Assembly: GCA_028344155.1 (NCBI GenBank)
Contig: JAOMAI010000001.1
Location: forward strand, 1-64,000
DNA: 64,000 bases
Reading direction: 5' to 3'
Source: Candidatus Nitrosopelagicus sp.
Lineage (GTDB): Archaea > Thermoproteota > Nitrososphaeria > Nitrososphaerales > Nitrosopumilaceae
Position numbers and translations under genes: made by a program. The notes beneath the pieces are model-generated. The model did no database searches. It was not told the origin of the DNA and worked only from the letters and a program-made list of their open reading frames with translations. The first letter of the stretch is position 1. Every line of letters begins with the position of its first letter. Shown here one piece after another: positions 47,837-51,694 of this stretch.

Positions 47837-47995
47837 ATGAGTGAGGTTCCAGAAGAATTAGTAAAGATAACATCAGGTGGAACCATCTCCATACCTAAGC
47901 AATTTAGGCGATATTTAGAGATGCAGAAGGGTGATTACCTCAAAATAGGCCTGGAAGGAGACCATTTAGTGGTCCGAAAAGTGTGTATTTCTTAG
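47837..47995 (+). CDS. 52-aa AbrB/SpoVT (MazE-like) swapped-hairpin DNA-binding protein (not in ORF track)
   Basis: MSEVPEELVKITSGGTISIPKQFRRYLEMQKGDYLKIGLEGDHLVVRKVCIS*. Confidence 0.75.
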   Translation: MSEVPEELVKITSGGTISIPKQFRRYLEMQKGDYLKIGLEGDHLVVRKVCIS

Positions 47996-48393
47996 TTTTT
48001 TGATAATTTCGGGGCGGTATTTTTGAGTTTTAGAGTGTGATAAGCCCATTCTCTACCTTTTTTGGCTCTTTCAACCTTGTTTTTAGAGGTAAATCTGGCT
48101 AAATATGTCGAAATTACGCTAAGTTTGATTGGTTGGTTGTATTCATCCTCATATTTCTCTAGTATGTCTGAAGAGGTGAATTTGCCGGTTGGGTAGTACT
48201 TGTCTACTATGTGCCATATCTTACCTCCGACCGACTCTACCCCAGGATTGTCTGCAGTTTCTTCAATATTCATCAAGTCTAGTAAATCGAAAATTTTGAG
48301 GACTTTATCACGATTGATGTTGCCCTCCAAGTTGAACTTGTATTTGGCTCCATCCTTATCCTCTAGATCTATTCTAATTCTTTTTCCTGCCAT
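47992..48393 (-). CDS. Unknown protein with probable C-terminal winged-helix-like region
   Basis: 133 aa; GGKIWHIVDKYYPTGKFTSSDILEKYEDEYNQPIKLSVISTYLARFTSKNKVERAKKGREWAYHT. Confidence 0.6.
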   Translation of the reverse strand: MAGKRIRIDLEDKDGAKYKFNLEGNINRDKVLKIFDLLDLMNIEETADNPGVESVGGKIWHIVDKYYPTGKFTSSDILEKYEDEYNQPIKLSVISTYLARFTSKNKVERAKKGREWAYHTLKLKNTAPKLSKN

Positions 48394-48547
48394 TCAGATC
48401 AATAAGGATCCAACCTTAACTCATCAACTGATCTTCTGAGATTTGTTAACTAACAGGTTTGTTAACATTGACTGCCTAGCCCACGCCTGAGTGTTTTTTT
48501 GTTATTAACAAAACTATCTCGTATACCGTCCAAATTTGGGGGTATTT

Positions 48548-48574
48548 CACGCCTAGACTGGAAATAAAGGGGTG
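48548..48574 (+). promoter_or_regulatory. ORB-like element 1
   Basis: CACGCCTAGACTGGAAATAAAGGGGTG; resembles the archaeal ORB core TGGAAA...GGGG. Confidence 0.65.
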
Positions 48575-48608
48575 ATTTTATGATATTAACAATGTTAACA
48601 GCCATCTT

Positions 48609-48634
48609 CACGCCTAGACTGGAAATTAGGGGGT
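48609..48634 (+). promoter_or_regulatory. ORB-like element 2
   Basis: CACGCCTAGACTGGAAATTAGGGGGT; identical over the first 19 nt to element 1, 61 bp downstream in the same orientation. Confidence 0.65.
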
Positions 48635-48756
48635 AAAATGGGCTTCTTTTCATTTTCCTTAACACGTCCTTAACAGTTGTTAACTATCCCCAAGCATTTT
48701 AGATTTTTTGTAAAATTCCCCCACAAATTTCATTTTTTATTTTCATTCTTTAATAT

Positions 48757-48784
48757 CCCACACACCTATCTTTCCAGTGTTATC
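48757..48784 (-). promoter_or_regulatory. ORB-like element 3, inverted and degenerate
   Basis: Minus strand reads GATAACACTGGAAAGATAGGTGTGTGG; shares ACTGGAAA and a downstream G-rich run. Confidence 0.4.
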
Positions 48785-48986
48785 TTTTCTAATTTTTTTA
48801 AAATGAGAATTCATATTCATACTAATTTTATTTTATTTTATTATACAATCTAGTTTATCATTAGAAATGAAGGTGTCTGGGAGCGATCCTATCGATCTGA
48901 GAAGAGTCAACAAGAACGATCAGTCTTGTGAAGTTTTTCAAAAAGATCAGTTGAACTGTTGTTTTGAAATACAATATGATCTCAAC

Positions 48987-50222
48987 ATGAGTACAACCAC
49001 AATCGATCCAATTGACCGTCTTTTAGATGCAGCCCAAAACGGCAAAACTCTAATCAAGAATAGAGACGTACTTCACTTTACATTCATGCCTAATCAGATA
49101 CTTCACAGAGACCCTGAGCAGGAAAAAATCACTCAATCTTTACTTCCAATTTTAATGGAATCAAGACCATCAAACTTATTGGTGTATGGCAAGCCTGGAA
49201 CAGGCAAGACTCTGGTAATTAAGAAAGTACTCTCAAAAATCCAAAAAAGGGTTGAAGAGGGATCATTTCCAATTAAACTAGCATATACAAACGCAAAACA
49301 AGAGACAACCCTATACGGACTATTGGTCTCCTTTGGAAGACAACTAGGCCTAGGAAGTCAAAAAACCAACGATGAAAAGATGTGGCTCCCAAGTACGGGT
49401 CTATCAATAAGTGAGGTATTCAACAGAATTCTCTACGTTTTAGACAAAAACGAAACAAACGCAGTATTCGTAATTGATGAAATTGACTACTTGGCAGAAT
49501 TAATCCAAAAAACAGGCAAAGATGTTCTATACCAGATTACCAGAGCAAACGAGCGACTAACCACAGGCTCATTAACACTAATTGGTGTATCAAATGACCT
49601 CACCTTCAAAGAAAGACTAGATCCACGTGTAATTAGCAGTTTGAGTGAGGAAGAAGTCATATTCACAAATTACAATCTACCACAAATCAAAGAGATATTG
49701 GATGCTCGAATTGAGGTGGCATTTGAACAAAACATAGTCTCAGATGCAGCATTAAACCTCTGTTCTGCTATGGCTGGAAGAGAATCAGGAGACGCTAGAC
49801 GCGCATTAGACCTTCTTCGAGTAGCAGCCGAGATAGCAGAAAGAACCCAAATGCCAACCGTCTCTGAAGATCATATCAGAATGGCAGCAGAAAAGATTGA
49901 GGAAAACAAAGAGGTTGTAGCACTTCGCTCCTACCCATTACATGAAAAGTTACTAATCTTAGCAATTATGAAATCATCAGAGATATCCACAGGAGAAGTA
50001 TATTCAACATACAAAAATCTCTGTAAAGATATTCGCCAAAAAGAGCTCACTCAAAGAAGAGTCACTCAAATGTTAAGTGAGATAGAAATGTCAGGAATTA
50101 TTGCTGGCAGAATCGTCCACCAAGGCACACATGGAAATACAAAGAAATTCAGAATTACGGTCTCACCAGATATGGTAAAAACTACCTTCAAAGATGAGAT
50201 GCTACTACAAGATATTCTCTAA
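48987..50222 (+). CDS. cdc6: Orc1/Cdc6 replication initiator
   Basis: NLLVYGKPGTGKTLVIKKVL (Walker A), VFVIDEIDYLAE (Walker B), GDARRALDLLR sensor 2, C-terminal wHTH; ORF open from 48867, the internal ATG at 48987 is likelier. Confidence 0.95.
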   Translation: MSTTTIDPIDRLLDAAQNGKTLIKNRDVLHFTFMPNQILHRDPEQEKITQSLLPILMESRPSNLLVYGKPGTGKTLVIKKVLSKIQKRVEEGSFPIKLAYTNAKQETTLYGLLVSFGRQLGLGSQKTNDEKMWLPSTGLSISEVFNRILYVLDKNETNAVFVIDEIDYLAELIQKTGKDVLYQITRANERLTTGSLTLIGVSNDLTFKERLDPRVISSLSEEEVIFTNYNLPQIKEILDARIEVAFEQNIVSDAALNLCSAMAGRESGDARRALDLLRVAAEIAERTQMPTVSEDHIRMAAEKIEENKEVVALRSYPLHEKLLILAIMKSSEISTGEVYSTYKNLCKDIRQKELTQRRVTQMLSEIEMSGIIAGRIVHQGTHGNTKKFRITVSPDMVKTTFKDEMLLQDIL

Positions 50223-51694
50223 CTGAGTTGTTGTGGCTCTGCATGTTTTGGTTCAATAAAGTCTGACTCTTGAACACGAAAGTCCTTTTGATAAACCTTC
50301 ATTGTTTGTAGATTTACTATAATGGCCATTCCAGGGGTAGGTGTAATTCCAACACTTTCCTGGAAATCTGTCTGTCTTTGCCAAGCACCAGAATTGACTA
50401 TCAAAACCCCTTTGTACATATCAAGACCCACAAAATGAACATGTCCAGAATGGAAGATATCCGGAATATCATCAATTACCATCATATCTTCAGTTTCTGG
50501 TGCAATTGGAGTCCTACTTCCATAAATCGGGCTCATATGCCTAGCTCTTAGAAAATGTCTCATCACAGCAGCTGGCTTGTCATAACTAACTCCAGGTGTG
50601 GTTCTGACCACATCATCTATTGATTGACCATGATACATCAAAACCTTAACTCCATTTAGTGAAACCATTGATGGATTTCCTAACATGAAGAAATTTTCCC
50701 TATCCCATAATTGAGAATTGTACATCTTTGGGATTGCAGGTTGTGGAAGAGCCTTTCTTCCTGCATCATGATTTCCAGATATCAGAAAGACCTTGATGTG
50801 CTTTGGTATCTTATCTAAAACCTCAAATGTTTTTTGTAATTGCCCTTCTGTTGTTGTTTGATTTAGTATCTTTTCTTGACCTGGGAAAACACCAACTCCA
50901 TCAATCAAGTCTCCTCCCACAACGACAAATCTTATCTTCCTAGCTATTGGGTCTGCACTTGAAATCCATTTGATGAATTCTGATAACTCTTCTTCCATGA
51001 AGAATTTACTTCCTACATGCAAATCTGATAAAAATACAGCATAAGTCTCAGTTTTTGAGCGATTTGTGGTATGTTCTGGTATGTCTGGGAGAAGAATCTC
51101 TTTTGCAAAAAATCCACCATTTTTGGCAGGAACTATCTTAAACATTGCAAATTGGTCCATAAGTAAAGTATCTGCGGTATCTTTCAAGTCTCCCTCAAAG
51201 ACCACTATCTCCATTGAACTGGTAGGATCTTCTAGAGTGATTTTTGTGATATTTCTATCTGATTTTCTGTCTGAAACTAATCCCCACACGAATAATTCAT
51301 CATCATTTTTTGTGATTGATTTGACAGATTCGATATCTTTGACCTTTTTTGATTCTGGTCTATCAGACATTATCTGTTTTAATTTGTTAAATCTACTAGC
51401 AAATAATTTACCATATCCCTCCACGCCTTCTGCTGAAGTAATCTTATCTGTAGGATCTGATAAAATCTCAAACTCCACCTGATGTTCCTCATCATCTTTT
51501 ATTCCTAGATAAATCTCAAAATCTTCTTCATTTATCAAAAACTGTTTTTGTTTTGTCTTTTCTTTAACTACATCTTTGATAATCTGGGCCAATTCCTTAA
51601 CATCAATTTTATGTAGAATTTCAAGTGCATCTGGATGGATCTGAAATCCTTTATTCAATGCATAACTAACCGCTGAGGAAATTTCTTCGTCCAT
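50219..51694 (-). CDS. polB: DNA polymerase D small subunit DP1
   Basis: OB-like domain plus calcineurin-type phosphoesterase: FLSDLHVGSKFF, VVGGDLIDGVG, LISGNHDAGRKALPQP, HSGHVHFVG. Confidence 0.95.
   Translation of the reverse strand: MDEEISSAVSYALNKGFQIHPDALEILHKIDVKELAQIIKDVVKEKTKQKQFLINEEDFEIYLGIKDDEEHQVEFEILSDPTDKITSAEGVEGYGKLFASRFNKLKQIMSDRPESKKVKDIESVKSITKNDDELFVWGLVSDRKSDRNITKITLEDPTSSMEIVVFEGDLKDTADTLLMDQFAMFKIVPAKNGGFFAKEILLPDIPEHTTNRSKTETYAVFLSDLHVGSKFFMEEELSEFIKWISSADPIARKIRFVVVGGDLIDGVGVFPGQEKILNQTTTEGQLQKTFEVLDKIPKHIKVFLISGNHDAGRKALPQPAIPKMYNSQLWDRENFFMLGNPSMVSLNGVKVLMYHGQSIDDVVRTTPGVSYDKPAAVMRHFLRARHMSPIYGSRTPIAPETEDMMVIDDIPDIFHSGHVHFVGLDMYKGVLIVNSGAWQRQTDFQESVGITPTPGMAIIVNLQTMKVYQKDFRVQESDFIEPKHAEPQQLS

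Follow-up and report, generated by a model that had tools for sequence, protein, structure and literature searches.

Does the intergenic region upstream of the orc1/cdc6 gene in a Candidatus Nitrosopelagicus genome serve as the origin of chromosome replication, and are the repeats within it ORBs of the kind that archaeal initiators bind elsewhere? Few cells in the sea are as abundant as the ammonia oxidisers of the family Nitrosopumilaceae, and to our knowledge their origins have hardly been described. One member of the same family, N. maritimus, has one mapped origin, and single-origin replication is established for it (PMC4010727, PMC5333045), so the existence of an oriC here was to be expected. 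The window that we analysed is a stretch of 64,000 nucleotides from an assembly (G000) of 863 kb; as this assembly is 65% complete, further origins elsewhere in the genome are possible. The features of the locus are as follows.

47992..48393, minus strand: gene for a winged-helix protein, reading away from the origin and syntenic across the class Nitrososphaeria.
48394..48986, no strand: intergenic region and probable oriC, from the winged-helix gene start to the cdc6 start, with ORBs, an AT-rich element, conserved synteny and no conserved CDS.
48416..48684, no strand: TTAAC/GTTAA array of 13 overlapping matches.
48472..48492, plus strand: two GCCT half-elements 11 bp apart, TGCCTAG / CACGCCTGAG, resembling boxes A and B in their left part.
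48546..48573, plus strand: ORB-like box A, TTCACGCCTAGACTGGAAATAAAGGGGT, far above chance and conserved.
48607..48634, plus strand: ORB-like box B, TTCACGCCTAGACTGGAAATTAGGGGGT, 61 bp after box A.
48762..48785, minus strand: ORB-like box C, inverted, with CACTGGAAAGATAGGTGT, with family-wide conservation.
48780..48855, no strand: AT-rich candidate duplex-unwinding element between boxes C and D.
48853..48876, plus strand: ORB-like box D, with CATTAGAAATGAAGGTGT, weaker, conserved upstream of cdc6, with a false ATG (48867) inside it.
48867..48986, no strand: conserved non-coding stretch of about 120 bp between box D and the true cdc6 start.
48987..50222, plus strand: orc1/cdc6 initiator gene of Cdc6-1 type, 411 aa counted from M41 of a longer ORF.
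50219..51694, minus strand: DNA polymerase D small subunit DP1, adjoining cdc6.

The original prediction placed a probable origin in a gap between 48393 and the orc1/cdc6 start that holds no credible coding sequence, and this description of the gap was borne out. The extent of the gap depends on where cdc6 begins. An ORF finder puts its start at 48867, inside box D; we rejected this candidate, as stops and frameshifts fall within 48867–48986 in some relatives. The same stretch is nearly invariant in close relatives while neighbouring synonymous sites change. Together, these observations indicate that it is non-coding and that cdc6 most likely starts at 48987, downstream of the ATG of the longer ORF, as had been implied. 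Comparison of relatives' loci showed that the synteny of the origin locus with cdc6 and polD DP1 is kept; polymerase D genes also lie near the origin in Pyrococcus and in haloarchaea. A perfect 12-nt inverted repeat, TCAACTGATCTT / AAGATCAGTTGA, flanks the origin at 48424–48435 and 48943–48954, and both of its arms are mostly conserved among relatives.

Two boxes in the same orientation, 61 bp apart, had been proposed within the gap. We located CACGCCTAGACTGGAAA at 48548 and 48609, in boxes A and B, and these are the sole matches with three or fewer mismatches in the 64 kb, where 0.02 would be expected. The core TGGAAANNNNGGNGT (TGGAAA-N4-GGNGT) occurs exactly three times in the window, against an expectation of 0.05, and all three occurrences lie inside the gap: at 48559 (+) in box A, at 48620 (+) in box B and at 48762–48776 (−) in box C. 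The degenerate inverted copy suspected near 48757–48784 is a real box, conserved across the family. Box D is a fourth box that the original prediction did not include; it was located as the best match per region, and in the window it scores weakly (15/18). The AT-rich stretch by cdc6 is also real, with a GC fraction of 0.117 over 48780–48839, and the richest 60 bp between boxes C and D (90% AT) are the most AT-rich DNA of the region.

Relatives share this four-box plan, in which A and B form a direct tandem, C is inverted, and D is direct and lies upstream of cdc6. When the regions upstream of cdc6 were compared across the family, boxes and spacing proved to be conserved: the order of the four boxes, the tandem of 61 or 62 bp and the AT-rich element are all retained across the Nitrosopumilaceae, and the A–B spacing takes one of these two values in 46 of 52 representatives. 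The 24-mer consensus of 104 boxes is YGCCTRGANTGGAAATAAAGGGGT, mostly with TTYA in front, although its information content is somewhat inflated because the boxes were picked by similarity to a consensus. One Nitrosopelagicus subclade (loci L065, L116–L118 and L120; genomes G052, G072, G122, G157 and G096) has an additional box 38 bp upstream of A, and the former B position in this subclade, 62 bp after A, is degenerate yet recognisable in L065 and L120.

We scanned 201 Nitrosopumilaceae genomes with the pattern GCCTRGANTGGAAANNNDGGG, allowing one mismatch, and found it in 171. Exactly two copies were present in 153 of these 171 genomes, so that the boxes are not scattered genome-wide; one copy was present in 9 and more than two in 9, while a reversed-pattern control gave one match in all 201 genomes together. 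Genomes without a match mostly had cdc6 missing from the assembly or at a contig end, or had boxes with two or more bases different from the pattern. Those with more than two copies mostly had between one and four sites away from the locus in addition to the pair at the origin; two box pairs occur in G089, and G015 has two contigs that share identical end sequence. Box-like sites outside oriC, at G104:C6:40740 and 46210, in G033:C26 and in G015:C28/C39/C148/C205, may serve for titration, be origins of mobile elements or have arisen by chance.

A skew inflection at this locus had been named as a test of the prediction. We fitted GC skew against replichore and gene orientation in 20 sampled stretches of G019, a complete genome of the same genus (1.23 Mb); the skew sampling covered about a quarter of this genome and a sixth of G086, a second complete genome (1.50 Mb). 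The best-fit centre in G019 was coordinate 0, which adjoins cdc6/oriC, with a side coefficient of −0.045 (t = −9.2). In G086 the skew switch had t = −3.2, and the interval of the best-fit centre was 765–825 kb, ending about 3 kb short of the oriC at 828 kb; because cdc6 lies mid-contig in this genome, the result does not hinge on the custom of starting the numbering at cdc6. Fourfold-site skews trade gene strands across the locus in both genomes. Within the window, the cumulative GC skew reaches its maximum near 48 kb, and the fourfold GC skew of plus-strand genes is +0.01 to the left of the gap and −0.55 to its right. Once gene orientation is corrected for, the sign of the skew switches at the locus in both complete relatives, as it does in the window. 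In the G019 and G086 samples, the sign of the GC skew is opposite to the usual bacterial pattern, the top strand being G-poor right of the origin.

Taken together, box specificity, the skew switch and family-wide conservation support the prediction of an oriC next to orc1/cdc6. The locus combines the features by which archaeal origins are recognised, namely an intergenic region by orc1/cdc6, several ORBs of which some are inverted, an AT-rich element and a switch in skew, and on this evidence 48394–48986 is very probably the replication origin of the Ca. Nitrosopelagicus chromosome. It is an origin of a known and expected kind, whose boxes are a derived variant and whose initiator has changed. 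We propose that Orc1/Cdc6 from the next-door gene would bind all four boxes as ORBs, namely the direct tandem of A and B, the inverted C, and D, with its winged helix on the TGGAAA half and its initiator-specific motif on the G tract. Duplex opening and MCM loading would then take place in the AT-rich DNA between C and D, and forks would depart both ways from the origin. We infer binding, unwinding and initiation from sequence, as we do any causal link between the changes in box and initiator considered below.

How do these boxes relate to known ORBs? The common archaeal motif is TCCA[CG]T[TG]GAAA[TC][GA]AAGGGGT (PMC4164010). Its right part, TGGAAATAAAGGGGT, is identical in the Nitrosopumilaceae boxes, which have the TGGAAA half followed by a G tract, and the AT-rich region, the two box orientations and the adjacency to orc1/cdc6 are likewise shared. 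The left half differs: where the archaeal ORB has TCCA, all family boxes have T[A/G]GA, so that the dyad is lost, and a YACGCC extension has been added, giving the form T[A/G]GANTGGAAA plus YACGCC. In other Nitrososphaeria the canonical dyad TCCA[C/G]TGGAAA is still present, as in the example TCCACTGGAAATAAAGGGGT. The 61-bp tandem itself recurs in other families and in much of the class, and outside the family the tandem upstream of cdc6 consists of the canonical ORB TCCA[CG]TGGAAATAAAGGGGT, with copies mostly 59–62 bp apart. The exact canonical pattern TCCASTGGAAANNNDGGGG was found in 0 of 80 Nitrosopumilaceae genomes compared to 22 of 41 other genomes, and a search for the variant box in 37 outside genomes gave only two matches, neither near cdc6. 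On these counts, the variant arose within the class. By these sequence comparisons, the family box is a derived ORB variant without the dyad, one of the features that define an ORB. This agrees with the lineage-specific variant carrying a CACGCCTAGAC extension that had been proposed, since the same tandem has the canonical dyad outside the family.

We also asked whether the initiator differs at the residues that meet the box. The window initiator has AAA+ and winged-helix domains and is Cdc6-1-like; its closest solved Orc1 proteins are 2qby_A and 2v1u. In A. pernix Orc1, the arginines R345/R346 in a helix and R367/R369 in the wing lie close to the ORB (PMC9738581). We placed them by alignment as RR and RGR, with a constant offset of 12 between the numbering of the file and that of the paper. 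The window protein keeps the helix RR pair, and its wing RGR is replaced by Q-G-T. The R369 position holds arginine in 20 of 20 outside sequences, compared to I, T, M, V or S in all 75 distinct family sequences, where the wing reads QG/SG-[ITMVS]. An automatic screen of family against outsider positions did not pick up the wing arginine, as the family residue there is variable; inspection of the alignment by eye revealed it. The branch leading to Nitrosopumilaceae thus saw the ORB lose its TCCA half (now T[A/G]GA) and gain the YACGCC extension, and saw the initiator lose an ORB-contacting wing arginine, at the position of A. pernix Orc1 R369. The half-dyad change and the arginine loss suggest that initiator and box probably changed together; as both changes fall on one branch of the tree, they are a coincidence of two changes and not repeated covariation, and any causal link between them is tentative. 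Many Nitrosopumilaceae also carry second, divergent Cdc6 paralogues (about 28–30% identity; for example at G034:C1:326836 and 1528869), possibly from mobile elements.

The origin region contains a further repeat that the original prediction did not include. Sites of the TTAAC/GTTAA array lie at 48416, 48445/6, 48461/2, 48505, 48586, 48594/5, 48659, 48670 and 48679/80, and across 52 origin regions the motif occurs 602 times compared to 125 expected from dinucleotide shuffles, an excess of about five-fold. Comparison of array and box A positions in relatives' loci upstream of cdc6 (L010–L107) showed that the sites are fixed relative to box A, at about −135, −105, −89, −45, +37, +45, +111, +122 and +132. 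Outside the family, the motif is dense in every other family of the order but one (f4), and in some deeper lineages.

The neighbouring winged-helix gene is found at the same place in 26 of 26 family loci and in 16 of 20 class loci tested. Its start is 157 ± 4 bp away from box A, and cdc6 is 357 ± 68 bp away from this box, so that the upstream part of the origin and the gene form a rigid unit. We rejected a strict link between array and gene, as four class loci (L137, L142, L144 and L146) have the gene and no array. The protein is uncharacterised, with weak Penicillinase_R/CopY matches. Its structure model is moderate (pLDDT 73, pTM 0.51) and had no match in the PDB below E = 0.001; non-significant generic fold matches to ArsR, BlaI/MecI and plasmid centromere-binding types are hints only. 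A bolder reading joins these elements: the recognition code would have been rewired, with dyad half and arginine lost together and YACGCC as a new contact, and the array would be read by the class-wide winged-helix protein in firing. This is possible, but we hold it to be doubtful.

The constancy of the winged-helix gene in family and class loci would also suit an origin at which the winged-helix protein, or some other factor, is the main reader of the boxes and Orc1/Cdc6 has a secondary part, and so would the GCCT half-elements, which stand alone upstream of box A. However, the G tract and TGGAAA core are ORB features that Orc1 binds elsewhere, and the gene persists in several class loci with differing boxes or array, tracking neither closely, which makes this reading improbable. 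Slightly less probable still is that the boxes are transcription operators, either for cdc6 autoregulation or for the divergent winged-helix gene, and that the origin lies elsewhere or is incidental. The near-fixed distance of box A from the winged-helix start, beside its variable distance from cdc6, is consistent with operators, and Orc1-family proteins can regulate transcription, as S. islandicus Orc1-2 does (PMC9738581). Against this, two complete genomes have their skew switch at this locus, the boxes are identical to the universal ORB in their right part (PMC4164010), and the tandem is found again in loci with a canonical ORB; moreover, autoregulation and origin function can coexist. That the repeats belong to a structured RNA, whether a cdc6 leader or a non-coding RNA, is the least probable reading, for although 48867–48986 is conserved and non-coding, there was no Rfam match near threshold and the folding of this leader was no better than that of shuffled sequences (z = −0.05).

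Read as an oriC served by Orc1/Cdc6, the locus resembles the oriC1-type origins of Sulfolobus, Pyrococcus and haloarchaea, which likewise have a Cdc6-1-type gene beside them and ORBs around an AT-rich element. It differs from them in its fixed direct tandem of 61/62 bp, its TTAAC/GTTAA array and its conserved winged-helix neighbour. The N. maritimus oriC (DoriC/Ori-Finder 2) is likewise a single origin with ORB repeats by cdc6 (PMC4010727, PMC5333045, PMC4164010, PMC5797428); N. maritimus belongs to another genus, and its box sequence is not spelled out in the accessible literature. Our literature search, which took in few subscription journals, found no report of the box peculiar to the family, of the loss of the arginine, of the TTAAC array or of the winged-helix gene beside the origin.

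For the Nitrosopumilaceae, the fixed family-wide box pattern provides a ready means of finding oriC at genome scale. The origin may have further parts, for which the TTAAC array and the conserved winged-helix gene next to the origin are candidates. Finally, the split between canonical and variant boxes matches the split in the initiator residue, which makes the evolution of initiator–origin specificity directly testable by binding assays.
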